64,000 nt of DNA. Origin: Balneola sp. GTDB lineage: Bacteria > Bacteroidota > Rhodothermia > Balneolales > Balneolaceae. The stretch spans positions 806,001-870,000 of the forward strand of contig NZMW01000001.1 of assembly GCA_002694685.1 (NCBI GenBank), read 5' to 3'. The notes beneath the pieces were generated by a model. That model saw only the letters and a list, made by a program, of their open reading frames with translations. It did not search any database and was not told where the DNA came from. This document shows, one piece after another, positions 17,283 through 34,967 of this stretch; the first letter of the stretch is position 1, and each line of letters opens with the position of its first letter. A program made the position numbers and the translations under genes.

Positions 17283-19103
17283 TTAAGTCAAAGCCATAGC
17301 TGATGCCTCTAAAGCATTAAATATGCTTGTCAAACGCTTGCTTTGTTCTTTTACCGTTTTCGGGATTGAAGCCAAGTTTTCAGACTCATAGGCCTTTTCT
17401 TCCGCAATCTCGAGACAATATTCCATTCCATCTTCAAGATTCTTCTTAAAGCGTCTCAGCTTTTTGAAGTCGTCCTGAGGGTTCTCACTTTGATTCACCA
17501 ACTCCTCAAAATAATCGACATACATCACCAACTCTTTCGCGAACATATGGGGGCGCTCTTCTGGTACCAATGAAGCGCTCTTACCATAAATATGATCTAC
17601 CATTTCCCGGAGACTATACTTCCTGTTGAACCAGGCAATATTTGGACCGGGGCAAATAGCTTGTGGCGCACGATTTGGCTTCAAAACACCTAAGGTGATT
17701 AACGCTCCATTTCCTAAATGATCACACAAACAGGCTTTTTCTAATACTTTTTCCCGCTGCTTCGATTTCTTTTCCTCAGAGATTCCACTATGATTTATCT
17801 GCTCAATCTTCAACAGCTGATATTGGGTTGAGGCCGTACAAATAGGATTCTCAGTAAATTCGGTATTTGACTCCAAAAACCCTTTTGGACATTGTGAACC
17901 GGGCTTTCCTTTCTCTATACGTTCCTGATGCCATTTTGCAGAACCAGTGTTCCGGACATTGTTAAATGGAACACCTAGCGGAGACACACCCGACAAATAC
18001 AGATCTTCTTCTTTAGCTTCCTGGAGAATCTTCATGGTTGGATCATCTACCGTGGTAGCTTCCGGAACCATGAGGAAAGGGCTTCCCCAACCGGTGGCAT
18101 GCATACCAAAATCTTCGAGCAACCGCTGTGCTTCACCGCTGGTACCAATCCCTCCCTGAACAGTTATTCGGGGCTGATTGGGTTCCCAGTCTTTACTAAA
18201 TCCACCTTCTCGCTGTTCTTCATAAAATTTTTCAATTAAAGGTTGAATGGATGCACTCAGCATTTCCTTTTTTTCCCGAAATTCTTTCAAAAGAGATGGC
18301 AGCAAATATCCATCGGAGGCAAAGGCATGGCCACCACAGTTTAAGCCCGATTCAACCCGGTATTCGAACACTTCTAGACCTTTTTTGGCAAGATATTTAC
18401 CCTGAATTAGTGCCGACCTGAAATCACTTACTTTTAAAATAATGTTCTTTTTGATTTGGCCTTTCACATCCCGATAAAAATCTCCAAACTCTGCCAGATA
18501 ATTGTATAACCTTGGGTTAAAACCCGCAGATAATATTAAGCTGGAGGACACCACGCTGTTTGCAAAACCACGAAGAGCCGCACTTCCATCACTATATTCT
18601 GCCGTCATGGGCTGTCCGCTATTCGGAAAACTGAAACCATCAACTTTCGACATAATGTTAACGTCGATAGAGCCGGGCTTCATGTTGTTGTTAAGTTCTG
18701 AAGCTAGTTCTTCCCGATTCTGCCCCGGACTCATCGTTAATAGATCCTGATACTTTTTCTTGATATCAGAAGTGTTAGGAAGCATTTCAAAGTACTTCGA
18801 CTTCTCATTGTTTTCGAAGAAAGGCTGACTTTTGATCGCTTCAAATTTCTGATTCACGATCTCTTGTACCAAGTCAAGGTATGCTGTGATCCTTCTTGCT
18901 CTGCCGTCTTCCGCATTCCTCGGGATATTCTCATATGGAAGTTCAAACAGGGTTGCGTAGTGTTTGCGGACTCTCTCGATCAATAAATCGTCAACAATTG
19001 AAATGACTGAATTTATACCATAAGGTGCAACGCGTATGGGCGAGTCGATAGAGTGCCCCGTTCCCATTACGGGAATGGAGAAAGTGTGTAGAGAATTTTG
19101 CAT
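17283..19103 (-). CDS. Unrecognised 606-residue cysteine-containing protein, possible flavin/TIM-barrel enzyme
   Basis: No named family is recalled with confidence. There is no signal peptide. Near the N-terminus is VMGTGHSIDSPIRVAPYGINSVISIVDD. The middle has GLNCGGHAFASDGYLLPSLL (Cys256) and VQGGIGTSGEAQRLLEDFGMHATGWGSPFLMVPEA, which resembles the phosphate-binding part of nitronate monooxygenase/FabK-type flavin barrels. Further cysteines are Cys405 (QCPKG), Cys422 (ICTAS), Cys458/Cys460 (CLC) and Cys484 (ICPGP), enough for an Fe-S cluster. The C-terminal 110 residues look helical. Position between ric and the two oxidase-like membrane proteins suggests a redox role in the NO response. Confidence 0.65.
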   Translation of the reverse strand: MQNSLHTFSIPVMGTGHSIDSPIRVAPYGINSVISIVDDLLIERVRKHYATLFELPYENIPRNAEDGRARRITAYLDLVQEIVNQKFEAIKSQPFFENNEKSKYFEMLPNTSDIKKKYQDLLTMSPGQNREELASELNNNMKPGSIDVNIMSKVDGFSFPNSGQPMTAEYSDGSAALRGFANSVVSSSLILSAGFNPRLYNYLAEFGDFYRDVKGQIKKNIILKVSDFRSALIQGKYLAKKGLEVFEYRVESGLNCGGHAFASDGYLLPSLLKEFREKKEMLSASIQPLIEKFYEEQREGGFSKDWEPNQPRITVQGGIGTSGEAQRLLEDFGMHATGWGSPFLMVPEATTVDDPTMKILQEAKEEDLYLSGVSPLGVPFNNVRNTGSAKWHQERIEKGKPGSQCPKGFLESNTEFTENPICTASTQYQLLKIEQINHSGISEEKKSKQREKVLEKACLCDHLGNGALITLGVLKPNRAPQAICPGPNIAWFNRKYSLREMVDHIYGKSASLVPEERPHMFAKELVMYVDYFEELVNQSENPQDDFKKLRRFKKNLEDGMEYCLEIAEEKAYESENLASIPKTVKEQSKRLTSIFNALEASAMALT

Positions 19104-20562: not shown

Positions 20563-21522
20563 TTATCCGAGGAATCCAAGTACGGACTGTGGTCCCATGT
20601 TTGCTTGCGCAAGGGATGAAGTCGCTGTCTGTTGTAGAATCTGAAGTTTCACAGATTTACTTTGTTCTTTCGCAAAGTCGGTATCCATGATACGAGACTT
20701 AGCAGATTCGTTCGCACTTATAGACTCAGACAATGTCTCTTCACGTACAGAAAGAGAAGACTGAGTAATACCGATGTCATTTACTCGGTTAGACATTTCG
20801 TCGATAGCTCCGTCAACTGCGCTCAGGAAGCTACGGAAGTCAGAAGAAGTAGCTGTAGCAGCGAAAGTAAGAGCACCTTGTCCACTTGTAGTAGCTGCAG
20901 TTGCTGAAATTGCTGCACCTGCTGCTGCTCCACCACCGGCGGTTGTTGTAGCACCAAGAGAAGCGTCACCTGCTGAAGCAAACAATGTACCTACGTTTAC
21001 CGCTTCGATGTCGGTAGAGATAGTATCGGAAGCACGCTCACCTACCTGGAAAGTAAGGGAAAGAGATCCGGACATATCATCAGTAGCACCATTCAAAAGA
21101 TCAAAATCCTGGAATACAGTCTGGTTAGCGATTTCGTTGATGTCATCGCCAAGGGCTTTGATCTGGTCGCCAATGTAACCACGCTCAGTGTCGCCAAGGG
21201 TATCGTTAGCTGCCTGAGTTGCAAGACCTTTCATTTCAACAAGACCATCCATGATAGTGTCAAAACTTGATTCTGCGATGTCAAGTACAGACTTGGCATC
21301 TCCTACGTTTTGCAAACCTTGCTCAAGGCCGGCTGTTCTACTTTTTAATTTAGTTGCGATCGAGTAACCAGCAGCATTGTCTTCTGCTTTGTTAATTTTA
21401 AGACCAGTAGACATACGCATACGGCTGTCTGCAAGGTCACGGTTTACTCGGTTCAGTGATAACTGTGAGTCTAACGACTGAACATTGGTATTAACTCTGT
21501 TTAAATCTCCAAAACTTGCCAT
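20563..21522 (-). CDS. fliC: Flagellin, copy A
   Basis: Filament subunit, 319 residues, exported unprocessed by the flagellar type III system. The N-terminal D0/D1 helix reads NRVNTNVQSLDSQLSLNRV and the C-terminal one SRIMDTDFAKEQSKSVKLQILQQ, ending MGPQSVLGFLG. The central part (about 150-230) is short and rich in Ala, Thr, Gly and Ser, a possible O-glycosylation surface. Copy B differs at about twelve residues, mostly in this centre. A good ribosome binding site (AAAGGTGA) precedes the ATG. A sigma-28-like promoter lies about 56 bp upstream and a terminator follows the stop, so it is a single-gene unit. Confidence 0.97.
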   Translation of the reverse strand: MASFGDLNRVNTNVQSLDSQLSLNRVNRDLADSRMRMSTGLKINKAEDNAAGYSIATKLKSRTAGLEQGLQNVGDAKSVLDIAESSFDTIMDGLVEMKGLATQAANDTLGDTERGYIGDQIKALGDDINEIANQTVFQDFDLLNGATDDMSGSLSLTFQVGERASDTISTDIEAVNVGTLFASAGDASLGATTTAGGGAAAGAAISATAATTSGQGALTFAATATSSDFRSFLSAVDGAIDEMSNRVNDIGITQSSLSVREETLSESISANESAKSRIMDTDFAKEQSKSVKLQILQQTATSSLAQANMGPQSVLGFLG

Positions 21523-21577
21523 GATAATTCACCTTTTTAATTTTTGTTTATTGATTCCATTGCTTTGGTTGATACAG

Positions 21578-21604
21578 TTATCGTACCCGAAATAGCGGTC
21601 TTAA
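21578..21604 (-). promoter_or_regulatory. Sigma-28-like promoter of flagellin A
   Basis: On the minus strand TTAAGACC-N11-TACGATAA, against the enterobacterial FliA consensus TAAAGTTT-N11-GCCGATAA. The same elements at the same spacing precede flagellin B, and a flagellar sigma gene (fliA) is present in the window. The expected leader is about 50 nt. Confidence 0.7.
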
Positions 21605-21856
21605 ATTTTACTTTAATTTTTTTTGATTTTTTTTGAAATAATTAAAAATCGAGGTTTGATAGTGTTTAAAGGTGTATTTAAAGCATGGAAATATTTTCAT
21701 CTCTCCTTATATCTGGCCCTTTTTAGGCGAAAAGGTCCCAAAATATTCTTACTTCAGAGCGAGGGTAAAAGTGAATAGTTTCCAATCATCTTCTTATTAG
21801 TTTGGAACCTTGATTTTCAGGATTTCAGGATTTCCTAGATTTCTTGGTTATGCCTA

Positions 21857-21880
21857 GTTACGTAGCTCCGGCTGCGTAAC
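21857..21880. repeat. Hairpin repeat
   Basis: GTTACG-t-AGC-TCCG-GCT-g-CGTAAC: nine paired bases on each side, interrupted by one T-G position, around a 4-base loop. GTAACCGGAGCT, a partial copy, occurs again near 21914. Confidence 0.6.
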
Positions 21881-21943
21881 CCCTTCTCAGAAGCTCCTGC
21901 TTCCAGAAGTAGGGTAACCGGAGCTTTGGGTAATTATAACTAT

Positions 21944-21961
21944 GGGAAGCTGAAGCTTCCC
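21944..21961. repeat. Hairpin repeat
   Basis: GGGAAGCT-GA-AGCTTCCC, a perfect 8-2-8 palindrome. GAAGCTCCTGCTTCC at about 21890 looks like a diverged relative. Confidence 0.6.
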
Positions 21962-22002
21962 CAACTGAGTTGCTAAGATGGACCTTCGCAACGAAGTTAA
22001 TA

Positions 22003-22068
22003 TTGTCATCCTGAGCGAAGCGATTTTTGATGAGGACCTAACCTCTGTCGCGAAGGATCTCGCTCAGG
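22003..22068. repeat. Interspersed element of the CATCCTGAGCGAAG type
   Basis: Outer arms CCTGAGCGA (22010-22018) and TCGCTCAGG (22060-22068) form a perfect inverted repeat around AAGGATC-like text. Diverged pieces of the same kind occur at 50614-50710 and 50841-50985. I recognise this type of sequence from intergenic repeats of Bacteroidota relatives. Confidence 0.5.
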
Positions 22069-22295
22069 TTCTAGCTTACCAAGTAGTACTGCTCTTGAGA
22101 TCCCTCGTGTTACATAACTCCACCCTTTGCTCTTTACTATGGACTCGGGATTGTACATGTTATGTAATTCGTTGACAACATTTTGTGATGTTTCGGTACC
22201 CACAAATGCTTAGTAAAAGAACTGCATTTTTTTGAGTTAATATTCATTGCAAAGCCTCGTAAATATTCCAAGCCCAATACTCCGACCTCTCTAAA

Positions 22296-22316
22296 TCTCT
22301 CCTTCTCAAGGAGAGA
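22296..22316. repeat. Hairpin repeat
   Basis: TCTCTCCTT-CTC-AAGGAGAGA, a perfect 9-3-9 palindrome. It is related to the 22381-22400 hairpin, and the pair may be the two ends of one small mobile or decayed element. Confidence 0.6.
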
Positions 22317-22380
22317 CTTGTCTGAGCCTATTAATAGTATTTATACCGAATTAAAGTATAGACAATTTATCAACGCGTCC

Positions 22381-22400
22381 TTCTCCTTGTTGAAGGAGAA
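22381..22400. repeat. Hairpin repeat
   Basis: TTCTCCTT-GTTG-AAGGAGAA, a perfect 8-4-8 palindrome sharing the TCTCCTT arm with 22296-22316, 65 bp away. Confidence 0.6.
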
Positions 22401-22624
22401 GACAGAAGAGGTCGAACGCTTGTTGAGTTCCTTAAGAAAATACTATGTAATCATTCTGGATGACTAAGATGTGTTAACTAAAAAATTGTCATCGAATTAT
22501 CTAACATCTACAGGGATGACAACTAGGTGGATGTATTGTGTGGAGCCGTAATATGTCTGATTACAGAAAAGCTTCGAACTTATAGAGTCCAGAAAATCAT
22601 TCAAAACCCAACAGCATAAAAAAA

Positions 22625-22652
22625 CCCACACCGACAACTAAGCCGGAGTGGG
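22625..22652 (-). terminator. Terminator of the second flagellin gene
   Basis: Stem CCCAC-x-CCG / CGG-x-GTGGG. On the minus strand it is followed by seven T. It starts 36 bp past the stop. Confidence 0.8.
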
Positions 22653-22687
22653 CTGGAATCAATAGATTCGATTTACTGGATTTCGGA

Positions 22688-23647
22688 TTATCCGAGGAAT
22701 CCAAGTACGGACTGTGGTCCCATGTTAGCTTGAGCAAGGGATGAAGTCGCTGTCTGTTGTAAAATCTGAAGTTTCACAGATTTACTTTGTTCTTTCGCAA
22801 AGTCGGTATCCATGATACGAGACTTAGCAGATTCGTTGGCACTGATAGACTCAGAAAGGGTCTCTTCACGTACAGAAAGAGAAGACTGAGTAATACCGAT
22901 GTCGTTCACTCGGTTAGACATTTCGTCGATAGCTCCGTCAACTGCGCTCAGGAAGCTACGGAAGTCATTAGAAGTAGCACTTGCTGAGAAAGTAAGAGCA
23001 CCTTGTCCACTTGTAGTAGCTGCAGTTGCAGTAATACCACCACCTGCTGCAACACCACCACCGGCGGTTGTTGTAGCACCGAGAGATGCATCACCAGAAG
23101 AAGCAAACAATGTACCTACGTTTACCGCGTCGATGTCGGTAGAGATCGTATCAGAAGCACGCTCGCCTACTTGGAAAGTAAGAGATAATGATCCGGACAT
23201 GTCGCCATCTGCACCGTTCAATAGATCGAAATCCTGGAATACAGTCTGGTTAGCGATTTCGTTGATGTCATCGCCAAGAGCTTTGATCTGGTCGCCAATG
23301 TAACCACGCTCAGTGTCGCCAAGCGTATCGTTAGCTGCCTGAGTTGCAAGGCCTTTCATTTCAACAAGACCATCCATGATGGTGTCAAAACTTGATTCTG
23401 CGATGTCCAATACAGACTTGGCATCACCTACGTTTTGCAAACCTTGCTCAAGGCCGGCTGTTCTACTTTTTAATTTAGTTGCGATCGAGTAACCAGCAGC
23501 GTTGTCTTCTGCTCTGTTAATTTTAAGACCGGTAGACATTCGCATACGGCTGTCTGCAAGGTCACGGTTTACTCGGTTCAATGATAACTGAGAGTCCAAC
23601 GACTGAACATTGGTATTAACTCTGTTTAAATCTCCAAAACTTGCCAT
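22688..23647 (-). CDS. fliC: Flagellin, copy B
   Basis: 319-residue filament subunit almost identical to copy A. I count about twelve differences, nearly all between residues 150 and 230 (for example AAGAAISA to AAGGGITA). One lies at residue 45 (Lys to Arg). The leader next to the start and the ribosome binding site are also identical. It has its own sigma-28-like promoter and terminator. The glycosylation cluster lies directly upstream on the same strand but ends 233 bp before this gene. Near-identity of the ends with a diverged centre suggests recent duplication or gene conversion. Confidence 0.97.
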   Translation of the reverse strand: MASFGDLNRVNTNVQSLDSQLSLNRVNRDLADSRMRMSTGLKINRAEDNAAGYSIATKLKSRTAGLEQGLQNVGDAKSVLDIAESSFDTIMDGLVEMKGLATQAANDTLGDTERGYIGDQIKALGDDINEIANQTVFQDFDLLNGADGDMSGSLSLTFQVGERASDTISTDIDAVNVGTLFASSGDASLGATTTAGGGVAAGGGITATAATTSGQGALTFSASATSNDFRSFLSAVDGAIDEMSNRVNDIGITQSSLSVREETLSESISANESAKSRIMDTDFAKEQSKSVKLQILQQTATSSLAQANMGPQSVLGFLG

Positions 23648-23879: not shown

Positions 23880-25097
23880 TTAGTGAGAGGAAGTGGGTGC
23901 AGCTAAATGCAAGACTAAATTCTTTGTTGAGATCTGTTCTGCATCTCCAAAACTTTGGATCGCTTCGATCACTTGGTCTTGATGTTCAATTGAAAGCTCA
24001 TAATAGAAAGGTAGGCGAACCAGGTTTTCTGAGTATTGATCGGAATGGAATAAAGGTCTTCCATCATGTTGTCGCTCAAAAAATGGAGAATCATGAAGCG
24101 ATTGATAATGGAACACACTCAGTATCCCTTTCTTCTTGAGGTGAGCTATGAAATGGTCGCGTTGGGGAGCGTCTTTGCAAACCAAGTAATACATATGGCC
24201 GTTGTTGGTTGCATAGTCCGGGATTTCCGGTTGCCTGATTCCAAACTCGGTACAAAAACTTTCCAACCCCTTCTGATATCGATTCCAGATACACATTCGT
24301 TTCTGTTGAATTCGAATCAGGTTCACAAGCTGTGCATATAAAAAGGCCGCGTTCAATTCGGAGGGCAAAAAAGAAGAACCAATATCCACCCAGCCATACT
24401 TATCAATTTCACCCCTAAAAAAAGCGGTACGGTTGGTTCCTTTCTCCCAGATTATTTCAGCACGTTCGGCAAAGCGATCATCATTCACAACCAGCATCCC
24501 TCCCTCTCCAGCCATAATGTTTTTGGTCTCATGGAAAGAAAAGGCCCCTAAATGCCCAATTGATCCAAGTGGGTGACTCAGCCCATCTTCATCTATATAG
24601 AAACTATTAATTGCCTGAGCTGCATCTTCCACCACAAATAGATTATGACGGTTGGCAACATCCATGACTTTGCCCATATCACATGCTACGCCAGCGTAAT
24701 GGACCACAATAATGGCTTTGGTTTTTTCAGTCACCAGCCCTTCAATTTTATCCTCATCTATTCCGGGATGGTCTGGCCGGGAATCCACAAAACGGATAGT
24801 AGCTCCGCGAAGCACAAAAGCATTCGCGGTAGATACAAACGTATAGGATGGCATAATGACTTCATCGCCCGGTTCAATTTCAAGCAGGATTGCTGCCATT
24901 TCCAGGGCATCGGTACATGAAGTAGTCAATAAACATTTATTGAAGCCAAACTGCCGTTCAAAAAAACGATGTATTTTCTGAGTGTACTTTCCATTTCCAG
25001 AAATCTTTCCATAGTCTACGGCATCCTGAATAAACTCAAGCTCGTTCCCCGTGATAAAGGGTTTATTAAAAGGAATATGATAGCTATCACTATTCAT
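23880..25097 (-). CDS. dTDP-4-amino-4,6-dideoxyhexose transaminase, WecE/RffA-like
   Basis: PLP aminotransferase of the DegT/DnrJ/EryC1 group. It resembles E. coli WecE along its length: FNKPFITGNELEFIQ, LLTTSCTDALEMAAILL, DEVIMPSYTFVSTANAFVLRGA, VVEDAAQAI, the PLP lysine in SFHETKN, and GTNRTAFFRGEIDKYGWVDIGSS. WecE makes dTDP-4-amino-4,6-dideoxy-D-galactose from the 4-keto sugar. The ATG at 25097 gives the family start (MNSDSYHIPFNKP) and overlaps the acyltransferase gene by 8 bp. An upstream in-frame extension exists but is not family-like. It is likely the source of an amino sugar for flagellin decoration. Confidence 0.88.
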   Translation of the reverse strand: MNSDSYHIPFNKPFITGNELEFIQDAVDYGKISGNGKYTQKIHRFFERQFGFNKCLLTTSCTDALEMAAILLEIEPGDEVIMPSYTFVSTANAFVLRGATIRFVDSRPDHPGIDEDKIEGLVTEKTKAIIVVHYAGVACDMGKVMDVANRHNLFVVEDAAQAINSFYIDEDGLSHPLGSIGHLGAFSFHETKNIMAGEGGMLVVNDDRFAERAEIIWEKGTNRTAFFRGEIDKYGWVDIGSSFLPSELNAAFLYAQLVNLIRIQQKRMCIWNRYQKGLESFCTEFGIRQPEIPDYATNNGHMYYLVCKDAPQRDHFIAHLKKKGILSVFHYQSLHDSPFFERQHDGRPLFHSDQYSENLVRLPFYYELSIEHQDQVIEAIQSFGDAEQISTKNLVLHLAAPTSSH

Positions 25098-25908
25098 AAG
25101 GGATAAATTTTCCTTTTTCGGGAAGCAGAAACTGCATGAATTTAACTTCATCAGCAGATCGTTTTTTGGTGTACCTGCGGGAACATACATCGAAGTAGCT
25201 TACTTCGTCGTCCAGTTTAAATTCACTAACTCTGTCTACCACTTTAATCAGATCTGCATTAACTCCTGCTTCCTTTACATACTGATTCATCCTGCTCAGC
25301 TTGTCTTTAGTTGTAACCAACTGAAACTGAGGGCCGATCTTTTCCGAAAGCGATCGCGCCGGAGAGCCTGCATAAATCTTGTTGTATTCCATATTCTTGG
25401 TAACCACAGAACCTACCATCGCCATTGATTTATCTTCTGCTTTTATGGGAGAAACAATACAATGACCTACAAACCAAACATCGTTACCAATATCCATTGA
25501 GTTTTCACTCAGAAATCTACATCCTTCAAGAGTATCCCCATATTTGATGTGTGACCATAACTGAGAGTGAGCTCCAATCCCACAATTATTCCCAATGGTA
25601 GTGCCACCAATACTGTCGATGATAGAATACTGACCGATCCAGGCATTATGTCCAATTTTACAAGGTTTGTAGCCATGCACATTCGTATCGTGATGGATTT
25701 TAGAATAATCACCGAGTTCAAAATCATCACAAATAATCTGCACATTCTTACCGATATAGCAGTTATCTCCAATTTTAATACGGCTGGCTGATCCGCTAAC
25801 ACCACGGATAACGGCAGACTTTTCTATTACGGTTCCCTCTCCTATTTCGATATTAATAGCATCAACATTAGGGTATCGTTTAGATGAATTACTCTTTACA
25901 ATTTTCAT
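25090..25908 (-). CDS. Left-handed beta-helix (hexapeptide) acyltransferase-like protein
   Basis: 272 residues. Hexapeptide repeats run from about residue 20 to 180 (IEIGEGTVIEKSAVI, IKIGDNCYIGKNVQI, CKIGHNAWIGQYSII, TTIGNNCGIGAHSQL, ending IYAGSPARSL). Then comes an 85-residue helical tail. Such enzymes transfer acetyl or other acyl groups from CoA to sugar amines or hydroxyls. It sits directly upstream of the WecE-like gene with an 8-bp overlap. It could N-acylate the 4-amino sugar, a step done by the unrelated GNAT protein WecD in E. coli. Donor and substrate are inferred. Confidence 0.78.
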   Translation of the reverse strand: MKIVKSNSSKRYPNVDAINIEIGEGTVIEKSAVIRGVSGSASRIKIGDNCYIGKNVQIICDDFELGDYSKIHHDTNVHGYKPCKIGHNAWIGQYSIIDSIGGTTIGNNCGIGAHSQLWSHIKYGDTLEGCRFLSENSMDIGNDVWFVGHCIVSPIKAEDKSMAMVGSVVTKNMEYNKIYAGSPARSLSEKIGPQFQLVTTKDKLSRMNQYVKEAGVNADLIKVVDRVSEFKLDDEVSYFDVCSRRYTKKRSADEVKFMQFLLPEKGKFIPYE

Positions 25909-25918
25909 ATTGTGGAGC

Positions 25919-27604
25919 CTAGGCGTTTACCGGTTTAAGCTTTTCTTGCAGGATGGACTTCGAAGCTTTTATCAAATCTTCTGCTCTCGTCTGCAGCCCA
26001 AATTCATCCGTAATAATCTGCTGCTGCCTTAAAATCTCTTTCTCAGATTTTTGGCTCACCGAAGTCACTGTTTTTGCATCTCTGAATTTTTCAAAACTAT
26101 AGACGTTCAGCCCATAGTCAGACAACATTTTCCAAGTCGGGTTAAGTTGCTTCCTGCCATTAACCTCTATGTATTTTTTAAGGATGGTAGGATTGCCACT
26201 GTAAATGGACAGCAAGTTGTTCCCAATCGCTTGCTGACGGTTGTGAGCCGTAATCAACATGCTGGAGCTGCTTATTAGCTGCTGATACTTTTCTGGGTCG
26301 ATGAACTCTTTTTCAAGCTTCACCATATCGGTCAGCCCCGCTACTTTCACCCACCGAAGAATGGCTTCCTCGTATTCAGGAATCAAATTGTAGGATACCG
26401 GTAATAGAATGTCATACTGGAATATGTCTTTCTTCTTTCGCAGAACTTCCAGGATATCAATATGATTGTTTGAATAATCACCCGAGTTCCCAACAACGAT
26501 AATTGGCCGGGCTGCCTTTTCCTGAACAACCGGTTTAGCCCCGTAAAGTCCAGGGTAAGGATAACCAAATCTGTAAGCAGGTCTTTCACCATATGTTTCC
26601 CTGAATACAGAAACATCACCCGGAACCAAAGACAAGATACTGTCCACATGTTCAACAATATCATAAATTGGAGACTTTACCTTTAGAGGGTTATAAAGAT
26701 CCCCTCCCCAAATAATCCACCCAATATGCTTTTGAGCACCAATAGATGTAATGATTTCCTTTTGCCAGCTGTAAAACAGACCATGTGCAAAAACAGCTTC
26801 TACATCGGGTTCGAGGCACGCATTGATAATGCTTTGTAAATCATTTTTATGATTAAACCACGCAACATGCTCATCTTTACTAAAATCTGGCTGATAATGC
26901 TCTATGGCCCAATGAGTTTCAACATACAACAGGTGCTTTTGATCTGATTCCTCATTCACAAAACTCAACAAATCAGAAAGTGATTTGGCATATAAATGGT
27001 TAAAGCAGAGATGAATGAACTTTGGTTTATTATTTCCATTCTGAGAAGAAATATTGATATAGAGTTCATCTTTTCTTTCCCGGGCTACTGCGAAATCCGG
27101 CTTCATTCTCAGAATAATTTCATATAAATGAAGCGCTTGTTTGTTCTTTCCCTGTAGTTCATAAATCTTAGCAATGCTGTATACTACCTCATGATCCTTG
27201 GGGTCCAGTTTATTCGCTATGCTATAGCATTGAACCGCCTTATCAAGTTCATTAAGCTGCTCATAGATTCCTCCCATCAACAACCAGCCATCAAGGAGGT
27301 TTTGGTCGAGCTGTATAGCTGCTTTACCATATCGCTCTGCAAGCTTAAAATCGGCCATAGCAGCATAACACCTTGCTGCCATTAAATAGGTTTGTGGATG
27401 TTCAGCATCTCTGGAAATCGATTCTTCCAAAGAATTTACTGCCTGCTCAAACTCTGATTTCTGCATATGGGCAATTCCCATAAAATACCAGGCTAACCAG
27501 TGCCCTCCTTCATCAAGAAGTGGCTTCAAAATCTGGATAGCTTTATCAGGATTTGGGTGCTCTTGATCCAGTAATATTTGTGCTTTCGCTAATGCCTTTT
27601 CCAC
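25919..27604 (-). CDS. TPR domain fused to a WecF-like 4-amino-4,6-dideoxyhexose transferase
   Basis: 561 residues. Residues 1-185 are TPR repeats clearly paralogous to those of the next gene upstream (17 of the first 30 positions identical). From about 195 the protein resembles E. coli WecF, the TDP-Fuc4NAc transferase: IGWIIWGGDLY (299-304), VGNSGDYSNNH (371-381) and NRQQAIGN (455-462). WecF acts on a lipid-linked sugar. The TPR module instead suggests a protein acceptor, probably flagellin or its first sugar. GTG start at 27604, matching the paralogue's N-terminus. It lies 5 bp after the upstream gene and 10 bp before the acyltransferase gene. Confidence 0.8.
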   Translation of the reverse strand: MEKALAKAQILLDQEHPNPDKAIQILKPLLDEGGHWLAWYFMGIAHMQKSEFEQAVNSLEESISRDAEHPQTYLMAARCYAAMADFKLAERYGKAAIQLDQNLLDGWLLMGGIYEQLNELDKAVQCYSIANKLDPKDHEVVYSIAKIYELQGKNKQALHLYEIILRMKPDFAVARERKDELYINISSQNGNNKPKFIHLCFNHLYAKSLSDLLSFVNEESDQKHLLYVETHWAIEHYQPDFSKDEHVAWFNHKNDLQSIINACLEPDVEAVFAHGLFYSWQKEIITSIGAQKHIGWIIWGGDLYNPLKVKSPIYDIVEHVDSILSLVPGDVSVFRETYGERPAYRFGYPYPGLYGAKPVVQEKAARPIIVVGNSGDYSNNHIDILEVLRKKKDIFQYDILLPVSYNLIPEYEEAILRWVKVAGLTDMVKLEKEFIDPEKYQQLISSSSMLITAHNRQQAIGNNLLSIYSGNPTILKKYIEVNGRKQLNPTWKMLSDYGLNVYSFEKFRDAKTVTSVSQKSEKEILRQQQIITDEFGLQTRAEDLIKASKSILQEKLKPVNA

Positions 27605-27609
27605 CTGTT

Positions 27610-30537
27610 CTAAAATTTTAATAATCTATTGTTGATATACTTCACCGTTCCCACCTGACAACTTGCTGATACTTCTGAGGCATAAACACTGAATTCAGCA
27701 AGCAGCACATCAATTTGCCTTCTATCCTGCTCGCTATGATATTCAACCATGATAATTCCGGTATTGATTAAAAGGTCTTTCATGCCAGCCAGGATGGCTA
27801 CTTCAGCTCCTTCAGTATCAATTTTGAGGACATCAATTTTATTGATCCCATATTCAGCCAACATTTCTCCACTGTTTCTCATTGGTACGGATACCTTATT
27901 GGCATCTTTAACTTGTAATGAAGTTGAAGTCTGTCCGGTATTATTTGGATGTTGATATAGGTCAATAGACCCATTTTTATTTCCAAGCGCTACCTGATTG
28001 ATGCTGATATTTCCTAATGATTTTGCATTATGCTCCAGCAGTGGAAATACCTGTGGATTAGGCTCAAAGCTGTAAATGTGACATTTTGCATTCCATTCAC
28101 GCGCATACATGGAAAACGATCCAACATTACCCCCTATATCAACCACTACGCTTTTTTCATTCAATTGAAATCCACGCGGTAATGCATATTCTTGCTGCTC
28201 AAAGATGTTTTTGAGGCGGAATATCTCTGATTTAGGAATCGCTACTTTAATAGGCTCACCGTGATTGTAGTTTGGGTAATTCACTACAGCCTCGACTACA
28301 TCTGAAGGTGTATTTTTGAAGTTATTCAGCGGCTTCTCAACATAAATCCCATTTTTGGGTTTTCTTTCCTGAGGATTTTCTCCGCTGCTCTCTTGTGTAT
28401 CAGTCTTCGCCTCTGTTGAATTCATCTCTATCTGAATATGATCTTGCCACTGCCCTTCTTCTAAACCTTTTTCATATCCCTCAACCCGCTGTATCCACAT
28501 TTGGCGGAAAGCTTCTGTAAGGTGTCTTCCAAAACGAGGTGCATTACAAACGGGAGATTCTAATAACCGGGCTCTTAGCTCTTTTCTAAGTGTTCCGATC
28601 TCAGAAATATCACCTGCAAGTGTAACCGCTGTCTCGATATAATCTTCCCAATTATCAGTTACCCATTCCGGAAATCCTGCGTTTATTAAATGAGAAGTTG
28701 AGTGACGTCCTGCAAAAGTGGGACCTGAATTTGTGATAACAGGCACGCCCATCCAGAGGGCTTCAATGGTCGTGAGACCACCTGAATATGGCCACGGATC
28801 CAGAGCGATATCTACTTTTTTGTAGGTTTCCAGAAGTTCTTTGTGCATCGAATAACCTTCAAAAACCAAACGCTCCTCATCGATTCCTTTTGAAATCATG
28901 AAGTCGACCACTCGCTTGCGAACTAATGCGGTATCGTACTGTTTACTTTTAAGGAAAAGTCGGCTTTCAGGTACTTGGTGAAGTATTTGGGCCCACTTCT
29001 CCAACAAATCCGTATTTATTTTAGTGGGATTATTAAAGCAACCAAAGGTTATGTATCCGTTTTCTAAAGCCGGTGGTTGAGAAACCTCAATCTCGTAGTT
29101 TGGAGGAGTGTAACACACATAGTCGTCTGGCATTCTGACCAGTTTCTCGGTATAAAAGGCTTCTTCCCCTTCCGGCGATTCCTTAGCATCCGTCAACAAG
29201 TAATCCATCGACTTTAGTCCGGAGGTGTTGAATAAGCCCCCCACCCATTTAACAGATATTGGCGCAGGTTCCAGCGCTATGGTTTTGAGCCTGTTACCTG
29301 AAGAATGTCCTGATAATTCCACAAGTATATCAATCTCATCGTCCTTTATGATCTGTGCAACTACTTCATCACTGTACCCTACAACGGAAGTCCATTTCGC
29401 ACATACTTTACGGATGCGTTCGGTTAAACTATCATGGTAGCTATCAGTTGTGTATACATATGTGGCAATTTCATCTGACGGAAGTTGCTCCAGTGCCGAG
29501 GTTATCATCCAGCCTACAGGATGTTTTTTAAATCCTCCTGAAATAAAGCCCACTTTCAGGGTTTTCTCTTTATTCTTATTAGCTGCTATGGGCCGTACAG
29601 GTCGTTCTTTTGGAGCATAATATTGATCCCATATAGCGTGGGCTATAAAAATATCCTGCTTAGATCGTTTTGGATTGTAGTGAATGCCCATCAAATAATT
29701 TGAAAGCGCCTGTTGTGTTTCGGGAGTATCCTGAAGTGCTTTGAAATAATTCTTTTCGGCCTCATCATACTGCCCGGTTTCAACCAGGCATAAGGCATAG
29801 TTCACGCGGATATTTCCGTCATTCGGATATTTCTCAAGAAGTTCCTCATTCAAATCGATAGCCTCCTGATACTTACCCATTGCACGAAATAATAAGGACA
29901 GCACACTTTGCGCCAACAAATTTTCAGGATCAATTTTTAATGCTTCACGAAGAGCTTCCTCAGCTTTATCATGTTCGGCAATTGCCTGATATACCTGTGC
30001 TTTTTTTACGATGGCATCTATAAAATCAGGTTGCATCTGTAAAGTGATATCAAACAACTCTAACGCTTTTTTATAGTCCCCCTGGTCGGCGTAGATCTGT
30101 GCGATATTGTAGGCAATCTCATAGTTTTTTGGATCCAGTTTATTAGCGACGGTATAACACTGTACTGCTTTATTAAGGAGGGCCTGATCCCAGTAGAGTC
30201 TTCCTAAAAACATCCATATTTCAAGAAGTTTTTGATTTAGCTGAACTGCTCCTTTTGCATATCGCTCAGCTTGTTCGAAGTTTCTTAAACCATAGTAACA
30301 TTTTGCTACCAGAAAATAGGTTTGAACATTCTCGGGATTTTCAGCTATTGACTTATCAAAATAGTTTATAGCCTTTTCAAAGTTTTCTTTCTGCATCTGA
30401 GCAATCCCCAGGAAGTAATAGACCAGCCAATGTTTTGACTCTCTTTTTAATAATGGGTGCAACAGTCTTATAACAGCATCAGGATTGGGTTTTCTCTGAT
30501 CCAGGATTTTTTGAGCTCGGGCTAATTCTACTTTCAT
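27610..30537 (-). CDS. Three-domain TPR, GT41 (OGT/SPINDLY-type) glycosyltransferase and FkbM methyltransferase
   Basis: 975 residues. TPR repeats cover about 1-295. A GT41 O-linked glycosyltransferase domain follows (about 325-700: KVGFISGGFKKHPVGWM, ELSGHSSGNRL, ITFGCFNNPTKIN, DPWPYSGGLTTIEALWMGVPVIT). The C-terminal FkbM SAM-dependent methyltransferase spans about 750-975 (VVDIGGNVGSFSMYAREW, DVLKIDTEGAEVAIL). GT41 enzymes put a sugar on Ser/Thr of proteins, and several bacterial ones act on flagellin. The methyltransferase could cap the glycan. It is the first gene of the four-gene cluster, with a sigma-54-like sequence 42 bp upstream. Confidence 0.87.
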   Translation of the reverse strand: MKVELARAQKILDQRKPNPDAVIRLLHPLLKRESKHWLVYYFLGIAQMQKENFEKAINYFDKSIAENPENVQTYFLVAKCYYGLRNFEQAERYAKGAVQLNQKLLEIWMFLGRLYWDQALLNKAVQCYTVANKLDPKNYEIAYNIAQIYADQGDYKKALELFDITLQMQPDFIDAIVKKAQVYQAIAEHDKAEEALREALKIDPENLLAQSVLSLLFRAMGKYQEAIDLNEELLEKYPNDGNIRVNYALCLVETGQYDEAEKNYFKALQDTPETQQALSNYLMGIHYNPKRSKQDIFIAHAIWDQYYAPKERPVRPIAANKNKEKTLKVGFISGGFKKHPVGWMITSALEQLPSDEIATYVYTTDSYHDSLTERIRKVCAKWTSVVGYSDEVVAQIIKDDEIDILVELSGHSSGNRLKTIALEPAPISVKWVGGLFNTSGLKSMDYLLTDAKESPEGEEAFYTEKLVRMPDDYVCYTPPNYEIEVSQPPALENGYITFGCFNNPTKINTDLLEKWAQILHQVPESRLFLKSKQYDTALVRKRVVDFMISKGIDEERLVFEGYSMHKELLETYKKVDIALDPWPYSGGLTTIEALWMGVPVITNSGPTFAGRHSTSHLINAGFPEWVTDNWEDYIETAVTLAGDISEIGTLRKELRARLLESPVCNAPRFGRHLTEAFRQMWIQRVEGYEKGLEEGQWQDHIQIEMNSTEAKTDTQESSGENPQERKPKNGIYVEKPLNNFKNTPSDVVEAVVNYPNYNHGEPIKVAIPKSEIFRLKNIFEQQEYALPRGFQLNEKSVVVDIGGNVGSFSMYAREWNAKCHIYSFEPNPQVFPLLEHNAKSLGNISINQVALGNKNGSIDLYQHPNNTGQTSTSLQVKDANKVSVPMRNSGEMLAEYGINKIDVLKIDTEGAEVAILAGMKDLLINTGIIMVEYHSEQDRRQIDVLLAEFSVYASEVSASCQVGTVKYINNRLLKF

Positions 30538-30578: not shown

Positions 30579-30594
30579 TCCAAAAATGGTGCCA
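30579..30594 (-). promoter_or_regulatory. Sigma-54-like promoter before the glycosylation cluster
   Basis: Minus strand TGGCAC-N5-TTGGA against TGGCAC-N5-TTGCW. The -24 part is exact and the -12 part has G for C. The distance to the start (42 bp) is suitable. The mismatch at a key -12 base keeps this tentative. Confidence 0.35.
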
Positions 30595-30884: not shown

Positions 30885-31208
30885 ATGCAAGACCCACAAT
30901 TAGTTTACCAGAAACAAGCCGTATTAAATGCCTCACCACTGAGATTGGTGGTCAAGATGTACGACTTGGTCATTCAGGCAACCTACCGAGAAGACCAGGC
31001 AAAGGTTAAGGCCATATTATCAGAGCTCATCCATGGATTGAATTTTGATTATGAACCAGCCAGTCAGCTTTTTGAGCTCTATAGGTATTGCCAGGATTTA
31101 GCCCGTAAAGATAAGTACGGTGAAATCCGTGAGATCCTTGAACCATTAAGAGAAACCTGGGAAGAAGTTGCCAATAATAAGCAACCTGCCCTTTCGGCTT
31201 CACAATAA
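30885..31208 (+). CDS. fliS: FliS-like flagellin export chaperone, short form
   Basis: 107 residues. FliS binds the C-terminus of unassembled flagellin. The N-terminus LVYQKQAVLNASPLRLVVKMYDLVIQAT matches the FliS start (YxxxxVxxASPxxLvxmLYdg). The end, DKYGEIREILEPLRETWEEV, matches its last helix. It is about 20-25 residues shorter than usual, with the middle helices contracted. It is first in the plus-strand fliS-fliD group, after tandem promoters, and 38 bp before fliD. Confidence 0.82.
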   Translation: MQDPQLVYQKQAVLNASPLRLVVKMYDLVIQATYREDQAKVKAILSELIHGLNFDYEPASQLFELYRYCQDLARKDKYGEIREILEPLRETWEEVANNKQPALSASQ

Positions 31209-31246: not shown

Positions 31247-32644
31247 ATGGCATCAATATCCAGCATAATGAGTCAAACAAGTTCGTACGAAAGTTTCGTG
31301 ACGCAGCTTGTAAATATTGAAGGGCAAAAAATGCTCCGGATGGAAAGCCAGGTTCGGGATGAAAAAGAATCAAGAACGGCGATAGGCACGGTAAGTAAAG
31401 CCATTTCAGATTTTGAGAATATCATTAAGGAACTGGAAAGCCCTACCAACAAATCTTTTGAACCTTTCAAAACGAGTTCAACAGATGATTCCGTGGTTGA
31501 AGTTACTTCAGCTTCAAGTTTAGACCGAAGTTCAAACTACAACATTACGGTAAACCGGCTGGCCAAAAACGATATCGCGCTCTCTACCCTTCAAAACGGA
31601 AGCACTAACGAGCTTGCGGCAGCTGGAAATGGATCGGTCACACTCACAATTGGTGATAAAACCGAAACTATAAATGTCGAAACGACAAAGGATGACGGAA
31701 GTGGCGGAACCATCGATAAAACCAATGAGGAAATATTAGCCACTTTTGCTGAGCAAATTGAATCCCTTTTTGGAGATGAAGCCAAGGCGAGTGTGTTTAA
31801 TGTTGATGGCGAAAATGTCCAGTTTTCAGTTCAAAGCTTGAACACGGGCTATGATAACCGTCTTCAATTTAGCGGAGCAACCGGAGTACTTGCTGACATT
31901 ACAAGCGGGATTACACATTTAACCCCCCAAAATGAATTAGACGCTCAGTTCACCATTGATGGAGTGAATTTTGAGCGGAGTGAAAACACCGTTGATGATG
32001 CCATTAATGGCCTCTCCTTCACGCTGAAAAAAGCGACCGGAGAGCAGGAACAAATGACGGTTGAAAGAGATATAGATGCAGCAAAATCAAACGTTCAGGA
32101 TTTTGTTGATGCTTTCAACGAGCTCAATGAAACCATCCGTGAGCGTACCTTCATTAACCCCGATACAGGTAATAAAGGCCCCCTTCAGGGAATGAGATCC
32201 GTAAGAAATCTAACGATTAACCTTCGTCAAACTGCCATCCTCTCTTTGGGTGGTGTTGGGGAAGGTGAAATAGCCAGTTTTGCGGATATGGGTATCACTT
32301 TTGAGAACAGCGGAAAAATGGTGATTGATGATAGCGACCAACTCGAGAAAGCATTGAGTGAGCGACCAGATCAAATTGCTAATTTCTTCACGAATGAAAA
32401 TTCTCCAGTTGCCATGATGAAAGCACGGGCTGAATCATACACTGAATCAGATGGGATCTTATCTGCTATTGAGAATGGATTAGATCAAAAAATAGATCGG
32501 CTTGATCGTCGTATAGCTTCCGAAAGACAGTACTTGGAAGAATATGAGGCGAAGCAGCGCCAGATATTTAATGAGCTCGACCTGATTTTAGAGCAGGGAC
32601 AGGCTCAGTATAATGAAGTACTGAACTTCATGACTTCTTACTAA
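31247..32644 (+). CDS. fliD: Flagellar filament cap protein FliD (HAP2)
   Basis: 465 residues. It caps the growing filament and guides flagellin insertion. The N-terminal FliD domain (MASISSIMSQTSSYESFVTQLV to about residue 100) and the C-terminal domain (from about 225, ending QAQYNEVLNFMTSY) are both present, with a coiled-coil tail typical of the family. The exposed middle is acidic and Thr-rich. It sits between fliS and the FliT-position gene, the standard order. Confidence 0.93.
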   Translation: MASISSIMSQTSSYESFVTQLVNIEGQKMLRMESQVRDEKESRTAIGTVSKAISDFENIIKELESPTNKSFEPFKTSSTDDSVVEVTSASSLDRSSNYNITVNRLAKNDIALSTLQNGSTNELAAAGNGSVTLTIGDKTETINVETTKDDGSGGTIDKTNEEILATFAEQIESLFGDEAKASVFNVDGENVQFSVQSLNTGYDNRLQFSGATGVLADITSGITHLTPQNELDAQFTIDGVNFERSENTVDDAINGLSFTLKKATGEQEQMTVERDIDAAKSNVQDFVDAFNELNETIRERTFINPDTGNKGPLQGMRSVRNLTINLRQTAILSLGGVGEGEIASFADMGITFENSGKMVIDDSDQLEKALSERPDQIANFFTNENSPVAMMKARAESYTESDGILSAIENGLDQKIDRLDRRIASERQYLEEYEAKQRQIFNELDLILEQGQAQYNEVLNFMTSY

Positions 32645-33548: not shown

Positions 33549-34967
33549 ATGAGTAAAACAATTCTTGTTGTAGACGATGATGAACTGCTTTTGGGGTTCA
33601 TGGAGGAAATATTAACCCAGAATGGGTTTACTGTTTCGGCCTTTGAATCACCCGTTGAAGCTACCGAATACCTTAAAAAAAACACCGTTGATCTGGTTAT
33701 CACTGATGTGAAAATGAACGAGATGACCGGGGATGAAGTCCTCTCTATCGTTCGAAATGAATATCCTGATACTGGGGTAATCATGATCACTGGTTTTGGG
33801 AATATCAATCACGCTGTACGTGCCCTCCATAAAGGCGCTTTTGATTATATCACCAAGCCATTCAAAAGTAAGGAGATTCTTTATCGTATCAACCGGTACT
33901 TCAATGCAGAACCGGAAGACCGCGATAAAAAGCCTAAATCTGTAGCCCATTCACCCCGCGAAGATAAAAAAGGAGACCTGGTAAGTCCTGTTGATAATTC
34001 CGAGCGGCCGGATAATAAGTTTGTTGGTAATGATCCACAGATAAAAAAATTAATGCGGATTTTACCTCAAATAGCCCGAAACGCAGCACCTGTTTTAATT
34101 CAGGGAGAAAGTGGAACCGGGAAAGAAGTTTTTGCTCATGAAATTCATGCTAACAGTCACCGCAATAACGGCCCTTACATTAAGATTAACTGTGCGAACC
34201 TCCCTTCAGAACTTGTAGAAAGCACACTTTTTGGTCATTTGGAAGGATCTTTTACCGGAGCCACATCAGATCGCGAAGGAGCATTTGATGCCGCTAAAGG
34301 GGGTACTCTTTTATTGGATGAAATCACTGAAATTGAGATGAATGTTCAGGCCAAGCTTCTCAGAGTTTTGCAGGAAAATGAATTTTACCGTGTTGGAAGC
34401 CAGACACCTGTGAAAGCCGATGTCCGAATTTTGGCAACTTCAAACCGGAACATAGCGGAAGCTATTTCTGAGAAACTCTTTCGGGAAGATCTTTACTATC
34501 GGTTGAATGTATTTCCAATCGAGATTCCTCCGCTTAGAGACCGGCGAGGTGACATCCCTCTCTTGGTGAATCACTTTGTAGATTACTATTCCAAGAAATA
34601 TAATCTGGAATCTAAAGCGATCTCGAAAGAACTCATGGATTACCTGATGCAGCAAGAGTGGCGAGGTAACGTCCGTGAATTAAATAATAAAATTCACCGC
34701 GGAATTATCCTCGCTCAGGAAGATACTGAGATTACGCTGGAACATATTGATAATGAGATGTTTTCGAATGTGGATGAAAATCTAACCAAGGAAGTTTTGG
34801 CTACCGATCTTCCACTCATGTCGATTGAAGAAATGGAGCTTCAGCTGATCAAGAAAGCTTTGGATCATACTCAAGGCAACCAAAAGAAGGCAGCCAAGCT
34901 ATTGGGCATTTCGGACCGTACTATTCGCAATAAACTTAAAAGCCTGGAAGAAGAACAGGAAGAGTAA
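33549..34967 (+). CDS. Sigma-54-dependent response regulator, NtrC family (FlrC/FleR-like)
   Basis: 472 residues: receiver domain (1-118; acidic pocket Asp10/Asp11, phosphoacceptor Asp53, Lys103), AAA+ domain (about 158-395; Walker A GESGTGKE at 186-193, LLLDEITE) and a Fis-type helix-turn-helix (NQKKAAKLLGISDRTIRNKL). The sigma-54 contact loop reads GSFTGA (233-238) instead of the common GAFTGA. Its place between flagellar operons suggests it is the flagellar class II/III activator. The partner kinase is not in the window. Sigma-54-like sequences near fliS, the glycosylation cluster and flgF are possible targets. Confidence 0.9.
   Translation: MSKTILVVDDDELLLGFMEEILTQNGFTVSAFESPVEATEYLKKNTVDLVITDVKMNEMTGDEVLSIVRNEYPDTGVIMITGFGNINHAVRALHKGAFDYITKPFKSKEILYRINRYFNAEPEDRDKKPKSVAHSPREDKKGDLVSPVDNSERPDNKFVGNDPQIKKLMRILPQIARNAAPVLIQGESGTGKEVFAHEIHANSHRNNGPYIKINCANLPSELVESTLFGHLEGSFTGATSDREGAFDAAKGGTLLLDEITEIEMNVQAKLLRVLQENEFYRVGSQTPVKADVRILATSNRNIAEAISEKLFREDLYYRLNVFPIEIPPLRDRRGDIPLLVNHFVDYYSKKYNLESKAISKELMDYLMQQEWRGNVRELNNKIHRGIILAQEDTEITLEHIDNEMFSNVDENLTKEVLATDLPLMSIEEMELQLIKKALDHTQGNQKKAAKLLGISDRTIRNKLKSLEEEQEE

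Follow-up and report, generated by a model that had tools for sequence, protein, structure and literature searches.

How an O-glycosyltransferase chooses its protein has been described as poorly understood (PMC7591256; papers are cited throughout from the accessible portions of their text). The question arises in a locus of Balneola sp., in which two neighbouring glycosyltransferase genes close to flagellin genes encode copies of one tetratricopeptide repeat (TPR) module: what would two enzymes of different families do there with the same module? The stretch of DNA that was analysed, called the window, is 64,000 nucleotides long (C1:806001-870000) and belongs to a 3.95-Mb genome. On its minus strand a set of four genes runs from 30537 down to 23880, flanked by two flagellin genes on one side and by the divergent fliS-fliD pair on the other. 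They encode a TPR-GT41-FkbM protein (protein A), a TPR-GT56 protein (protein B), a hexapeptide-repeat acyltransferase and a WecE-like sugar aminotransferase; in this order, the first two gaps measure 5 and 10 bp, and the last two genes overlap by 8 bp. The open reading frame (ORF) map and the domain matches bear out a preliminary description of the window, which had reported four packed genes beside two flagellin genes. Gene content, synteny, gene fusions, module duplication and the promoter motif were all read from sequence. On this basis the locus is very probably a cytoplasmic flagellin O-glycosylation operon, in which protein A and then protein B would build a glycan containing acylated 4-amino-4,6-dideoxygalactose (Fuc4N).

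In the proposed pathway, the WecE-like enzyme would aminate deoxythymidine diphosphate (dTDP)-4-keto-6-deoxyglucose to dTDP-Fuc4N, which the hexapeptide enzyme would N-acylate. Protein A would bind flagellin before its export and transfer the first sugar to Ser/Thr residues of the central S/T-rich stretch, which covers about residues 146-220 of the window flagellins, the FkbM domain of protein A would O-methylate the glycan, and protein B would attach the acylated Fuc4N to the first sugar. The duplicate TPR module would bring the GT56 domain of protein B to the same place as protein A, whether it docks on flagellin or pairs with protein A; in some relatives, the steps of the two proteins would be covalently joined in a single polypeptide. 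The client, the sugar, the order of action, the ligand of the TPR modules and the priority of the fused or the split form are what we infer.

Linkage of GT41 to flagellar genes

The position of GT41 genes was surveyed in 116 genomes, the window's own among them. GT41 was found in 33 genomes (32 over the Pfam cut-off and one with a fragment below it) and FliS in 45, and the GT41 gene lay at most 10 kb from FliS in 30 of the 33. The exceptions were G013 and G030, where GT41 was found and FliS was not, and G065, which has the below-cut-off fragment, with stops; G042 contains a second GT41, away from FliS. The gene order flagellin, aminotransferase, hexapeptide enzyme, B, A, fliS, fliD is kept in three congeners (G001, G005 and G007; loci L029, L031 and L032), and the TPR-GT41 architecture is common in the order Balneolales and is found in Proteobacteria as well. 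This synteny lends good support to the reading already proposed in the preliminary description, namely that of a flagellin-glycosylation locus.

Of 25 loci, 22 have a sigma-54-like motif (TGGCAY-N5-TTG) no more than 200 bp upstream of TPR-GT41, as compared to 2 of 154 control ORFs (uncurated, mechanical ORFs of at least 200 aa, taken from 24 of these loci). The 25 loci were drawn from the 30 linked to fliS, those of G010, G066, G092, G094 and G098 being left out. Across the whole window the motif is not enriched (26 matches vs. 29.7 expected); for this reason the site near gene A has no weight alone, and derives it from conservation.

Catalytic domains of proteins A and B

The GT41 assignment of protein A is given by PF13844 (152.8 bits, Pfam cut-off 25), and the solved sequences nearest to this domain, as determined with phmmer, are SPINDLY (SPY; 7y4i, 256.3 bits) and the Thermobaculum OGT (5djs, 241.8 bits). 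Protein A shares with both the combination of TPR and GT41 and, in an alignment read by eye, has identical Lys, His and Tyr residues at the positions of SPY K665, H495 and Y744. It differs from them in being a bacterial protein with an FkbM domain, and in having Pro at the position of SPY S496 and Leu at that of T748, so that the SPY residues, whose roles are those given in PMC9715652, are only partly kept. SPINDLY O-fucosyltransferases use GDP-fucose; a gmd gene is present in the genome (593.9 bits) but may serve other polymers. The FkbM domain (PF05050, 74.3 bits) is carried on the GT41 polypeptide and not encoded by a separate gene. It is 48-56% identical to the distal FkbM domain of six relatives and 22-29% to their central one; by this closer resemblance to the distal domain, protein A is itself a mosaic.

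Protein B is, judged by its family matches, a member of GT56 (PF07429, 51.2 bits, cut-off 25) and not the WecF of the enterobacterial common antigen (ECA) pathway; against the NCBIfam WecF equivalog models its best score was 102.2 bits, as compared to a cut-off of 457. A model of the whole protein, built from 4 sequences, was poor in the glycosyltransferase part (mean predicted local distance difference test, pLDDT, 58.3), and the GT56 part was remodelled with 36 sequences, which gave a pLDDT of 92.6. The remodelled domain is predicted to adopt a GT-B fold, the best match being BshA (Z 26.7, root-mean-square deviation, rmsd, 3.1 over 331 residues). The Xanthomonas OGT also resembles the model (Z 22.3, rmsd 3.8 over 336 residues), and SPY is found among the Foldseek matches. 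Within the best 60 matches listed for protein B, it is covered by TPR proteins only, with no WecF-like chain among these. The two transferases, at first described as unrelated, do belong to different families but probably have the GT-B fold in common.

Predicted sugar

The aminotransferase scored above the cut-offs of both WecE models (NF008687, 546.6 bits vs. 375; TIGR02379, 514.1 bits vs. 434.85). Its nearest structures are two solved WecE-type enzymes, with 403 (4piw) and 402 bits, whereas the next structure gave 144 bits. The genome contains rmlB (433.5 bits, cut-off 365.1). GT56 relatives are named TDP-N-acetylfucosamine transferases (WecF) in NCBIfam, protein B being under those cut-offs. 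The hexapeptide acyltransferase matched PF00132 (38.1 bits), and WcaF/NeuD-type models below their cut-offs. Because of the WecE model and structure matches, the presence of rmlB and the WecF naming of the GT56 relatives, the donor is most likely acylated dTDP-Fuc4N, a galacto sugar, with viosamine, the gluco sugar, as the alternative.

With the WecE/WecF part of the ECA pathway the locus has in common an aminotransferase that passes the WecE models and a transferase of the GT56 family. Unlike the ECA WecF, the GT56 domain described here is linked to a TPR module, is tied to flagellin and falls below the WecF equivalog cut-offs; unlike the ECA pathway, moreover, the acyltransferase is of the hexapeptide type. 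WecD of E. coli is a GNAT enzyme.

The preliminary description had drawn a parallel with the viosamine glycan of Pseudomonas syringae flagellin. As far as the gene set is concerned the parallel holds, in that aminotransferase, acyltransferase, transferase and methyltransferase correspond to those of the viosamine island (PMC3927599). In addition, AMP-ligase-like and FabG-like reductase genes are located downstream of the fusion gene (see below) in the locus of G003 (L030, 13311-15430); they are of the kind required for a 3-hydroxyacyl group on the amino sugar, and recall vioR. The parallel probably does not extend to the sugar, however: the WecE matches, far above those of the next structure, and the name of Fuc4NAc transferase borne by the GT56 family in NCBIfam favour Fuc4N, and acylated viosamine as the added sugar is unlikely. 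The P. syringae system also differs in its setting and first step, according to the accessible text of PMC3927599: the island lies between glutamine synthetase and histidine kinase genes, its VioT has 1173 aa, and the gluco sugar follows a first rhamnose added by Fgt1.

Fused and split forms of GT41 and GT56

In G003, G018 and G033 (L030, L034 and L036) one protein of 1560-1600 aa combines TPR-GT41 with a methyltransferase-like domain, a stretch that matches no Pfam family, and GT56. The fusion gene adjoins fliS and is followed by the aminotransferase gene and, further on, by flagellin genes. G003 is of the Gracilimonas mengyeensis type, and the type strain of that species, DSM 21985 (L123), has the fused form. 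TPR, GT41 and GT56 are also joined in single proteins of Achromobacter sp. HZ34 (1654 aa), Oceanisphaera pacifica (1528 aa) and Marinobacterium stanieri (1017 aa), found in public genomes; Pfam confirmed all three domains in each, and the three fusions adjoin flagellin. These proteobacterial loci give more independent support than the Balneolales relatives. In the window and its three congeners, GT41 and GT56 are on separate polypeptides, GT56 carrying a duplicate of the TPR module of its partner.

GT56 relatives in public genomes were then considered by themselves, the best 80 of 201 being examined. Flagellin was matched in every one of the 7 loci that have GT41, as compared to 2 of the 73 without it (the seven include the three Balneolales fusions described above, and also L193, whose GT41 match is only 26% identical and on a separate gene). 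The aminotransferase query matched 69 of the 80 loci (13 of them at less than 31% identity, one at 38%), and the identity to the window's enzyme was at least 45% in 55. A Clostridiaceae locus with no flagellin match (L132) contains GT56, hexapeptide enzyme (51%) and aminotransferase (49%) in the order seen in the window. On account of this co-occurrence and gene order, the set of GT56, acyltransferase and WecE has the look of a sugar cassette that some lineages recruited to flagellin. That the genes of the locus act together is supported by the GT41-GT56 fusions and by the order GT56, hexapeptide enzyme, aminotransferase kept in the congeners and in L132. GT56 and WecE-like genes were also observed near flagellin in Paenibacillus (L143) and Clostridium (L144), with no GT41 match.

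Proteins A and B might alternatively glycosylate flagellin directly at different residues, giving two independent O-glycans and no disaccharide. A TPR module on both proteins would agree with this, and so would the Paenibacillus and Clostridium loci; the fusions, on the other hand, favour successive steps, and the nearest named GT56 relatives are WecF models, named for a transferase that acts on a lipid-linked sugar. We consider two separate O-glycans unlikely.

GT56 loci without GT41 are mostly without flagellin and often have a WecE-like gene; likewise, 9 of the 11 TPR-less GT56 loci of the order (L038-L048) have a WecE-like gene at least 50% identical. These observations would suit an operon for a surface polysaccharide, similar to ECA or O-antigen, located next to flagellin by chance. 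This explanation is very improbable, considering that the window proteins scanned did not match polymerase or flippase families, that proteins are the substrates of those GT41 relatives whose structures are solved, and that the link to flagellar genes persists in different families of the order as well as in Proteobacteria.

The GT56 tree did not separate the three Balneolales groups in branching order. In the GT41 tree, the window's group is placed with G018, G033 and G042, which belong to another genus (100/99), and not with the congeners G003 and G004; the locus may therefore have moved between lineages.

Paralogous TPR modules

Over residues 1-190, the TPR modules of proteins A and B are identical at 93 of 190 positions (49%) and match in register with 193 bits, the off-register match giving 52 bits. 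The identity of 17 of the first 30 residues, counted by hand in the preliminary description, is correct on alignment when the start codon is read as Met. In the model, the TPR part of protein B is made mostly of helices predicted with a pLDDT of about 72-95 up to residue 180. When 29 modules from the order were placed in a tree, the four A modules grouped together (94/88), as did the four B modules (99/92), and the two groups are neighbours, together separated from the other 21 modules at 100/99. For this tree, which was rooted at its midpoint, the program gave a warning about long branches (G067_o, 1.24; G000_B, 0.7), and about ones that meet between the A and B group and G074_o with one extra row. 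A chance likeness of two TPR modules was ruled out by the difference between in-register and off-register matches and by the tree grouping. The modules are thus truly paralogous, as the first description had proposed. On account of the in-register identity and the neighbouring groups, the B module is best read as a duplicate of the A module that arose in the lineage of the window and the congeners G001, G005 and G007.

By convention, the ligand-facing positions of a TPR are 2, 5, 9, 12 and 13. The identity between A and B modules was compared in four genomes at 20 such canonical positions, with a one-sided test. The comparison speaks against a single ligand surface common to both proteins: identity was 0.33 at the ligand-facing positions, whereas the 84 other non-core positions gave 0.56 and the 32 core positions 0.70 (p = 0.98 in the favourable direction). 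In the other fliS-linked proteins, the ligand-facing positions were not significantly better kept (0.62 vs. 0.57, p = 0.17). Between the window and the three congeners the B module is 47-49% identical, whereas the A module is 77% and the flagellins 94-96% identical; the congeners are closely related, so that this is in effect one comparison. Altogether, the ligand positions and the congener data do not favour a single flagellin-binding groove common to A and B. A B module that pairs with A would agree with them, and so would one that binds flagellin under less constraint.

The first of these two cases amounts to a different role for the module, in which the TPR of B would pair with that of A instead of reading flagellin, and a complex of two polypeptides would do the work of the fused enzyme with the same flagellin-glycosylation function. 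The B module is a related copy of that of A and stands where relatives have a covalent link; the poor agreement at concave positions and the low identity of the B modules point in the same direction, and SPY is very likely a functional dimer (PMC9715652). Yet the precedent tested at the bench, FlmG, binds flagellin through its TPR part (PMC7591256), and the identity comparison with the mutually close congeners counts as one. We regard pairing as a serious alternative, although less likely than not.

Comparison with known systems and points against the proposed pathway

Returning to flagellin glycosylation by successive action of A and B, a close known case is FlmG of Caulobacter crescentus, whose TPR part binds flagellins (PMC7591256). 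Like FlmG, with its N-terminal TPR part and C-terminal GT-B glycosyltransferase in a cytoplasmic pathway, the window proteins combine TPR and glycosyltransferase in one protein tied to flagellin genes. FlmG, however, is one transferase and transfers pseudaminic acid (PMC7591256), whereas the window has two transferases with paralogous TPR modules and a dTDP-4-amino sugar pathway. Enterobacterial flagellin islands also encode SPINDLY-type GT41 proteins, most of them with methyltransferase domains, and in some cases FkbM genes; GT56, TPR and a duplicated module are not mentioned in the accessible portion of PMC4875605. TPR targeting (PMC7591256) and GT41 with methyltransferase domains in enterobacterial flagellin islands (PMC4875605) are already published. 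A literature search, outside which most subscription papers lay, did not turn up a description of two flagellin glycosyltransferases with duplicated TPR modules, or of GT41-GT56 fusions.

Several observations, in addition to the ligand-facing positions described above, weigh against the proposed pathway. The same search found no report of flagellin glycans from Gracilimonas-like bacteria. No GT41 match was obtained for 14 of the 45 FliS-bearing genomes (15 on leaving out the G065 fragment), and the system is therefore not needed for flagella. The relatives share ancestry and are not independent samples, so that the counts overstate independence. Consistent separation of homologues from flagellar genes, which the preliminary description had named as contrary evidence, is absent for TPR-GT41 and present for GT56 without GT41, where 71 of 73 loci have no flagellin match in the stretch examined. 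The fusion loci of G018 and G033 (L034 and L036) have no adjacent acyltransferase match. In the stretches examined of the proteobacterial fusion loci, the aminotransferase is 51% identical in Marinobacterium, 28% in Oceanisphaera and absent in Achromobacter; for this reason the sugar may differ there. Finally, GT56 also occurs in other contexts: besides the flagellar fusion, G018 and G033 carry TPR-GT2-GT56 proteins of 1276 and 1275 aa (L033, 9440-13270, and L035, 6978-10805; the same as L124 and L126), and G042 has a GT56 protein with another N-terminal part (L037, the same as L121), all with no flagellar match in the stretch.

The locus is informative in two respects. In Gracilimonas-like bacteria it leads one to expect flagellin glycans that contain a 4-amino-4,6-dideoxyhexose. 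The enzyme pair, moreover, occurs in nature both fused and as separate proteins, in the latter case with a duplicated module, which makes the targeting role of the TPR directly testable.

Variety of distal domains on TPR-GT41

A Pfam scan covered the C-terminal parts of 17 TPR-GT41 proteins linked to fliS, and a separate one that of L036; L083, L085 and L087 were judged by tblastn only, and L093-L095 and L100, cut at the stretch end or short, were outside the scan. FkbM was over the cut-off in 15 of the 17. Beyond or instead of FkbM, these parts contained GT56 (2), GT2 over the cut-off (3), Glyco_trans_1_2 (4), a second FkbM (3) or a kinase-like domain over the cut-off (3), which can co-occur.

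This variety suggests a broader reading, which we hold with evenly divided confidence. TPR-GT41 would be a flagellin-linked chassis in the order, with an exchanged distal enzyme (GT56, GT2, other glycosyltransferases, a second FkbM or a kinase-like domain). In the lineage of the window, the distal enzyme would stand on its own polypeptide and be kept on target by the copied TPR, so that a duplicated address or pairing module replaces the covalent tether. If so, TPR modules would be portable targeting tags for protein glycosylation.

As a separate observation, the APH- or protein-kinase-like ends over the Pfam cut-off are those of L090 (4179-9809), L092 (3554-9400) and L097 (1613-5056), and might mean phosphate-bearing flagellin glycans.

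Features of the locus and neighbouring genes

The features are collected in Table 1. The ORF of the aminotransferase, as read mechanically, extends over 23880-25190 on the minus strand; since the matches to the WecE models set in just past the internal ATG at 25097, this ATG is the likely start.

Table 1. Features of the four-gene locus and of its flagellar neighbours (positions in the window).
Feature	Position	Strand	Basis
Protein A, TPR-GT41-FkbM	27610-30537	-	975 aa ORF
N-terminal TPR module of protein A, residues 1-190	29968-30537	-	Pfam TPR; 49% identity to B module; TPR tree
Additional TPRs, residues 191-300, in protein A but not in protein B	29638-29967	-	Pfam TPR
GT41 catalytic domain of protein A, residues 311-700	28438-29607	-	PF13844; phmmer to 7y4i, 5djs
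FkbM-type methyltransferase domain of protein A, core about residues 797-941	27610-28227	-	PF05050, TIGR01444
Protein B, TPR-GT56	25919-27604	-	561 aa ORF, GTG start
N-terminal TPR module of protein B, residues 1-190	27035-27604	-	Pfam TPR; alignment; tree; modelled helices
GT56 (WecF-like) domain of protein B, residues 191-561, predicted GT-B fold	25919-27034	-	PF07429; model
Hexapeptide-repeat acyltransferase, probable N-acyltransferase of 4-amino sugar	25090-25908	-	272 aa; PF00132; congener position; Clostridiaceae locus L132
WecE-like dTDP-sugar aminotransferase, Fuc4N-forming by its models	23880-25097 (revised start)	-	405 aa; NF008687, TIGR02379; 4piw
Flagellin gene, probable client	22688-23647	-	PF00669 + PF00700
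Second flagellin gene, probable client	20563-21522	-	PF00669 + PF00700
fliS, divergent neighbour	30885-31208	+	PF02561
fliD, filament cap	31247-32644	+	NCBIfam FliD models, below their cut-offs
Sigma-54-like site TGGCACCATTTTTGGA, 41 bp upstream of protein A gene	30579-30594	-	Motif conservation in TPR-GT41 loci

The two flagellin genes are near-identical and are separated by a 1.2-kb gap (21523-22687), in which no ORF of at least 80 aa is listed. A 606-aa protein without Pfam match, encoded at 17283-19103, is also present in two congener loci (84 and 87% identity). On the other side of the locus, a gene for an NtrC-family regulator is found nearby, at 33549-34967.

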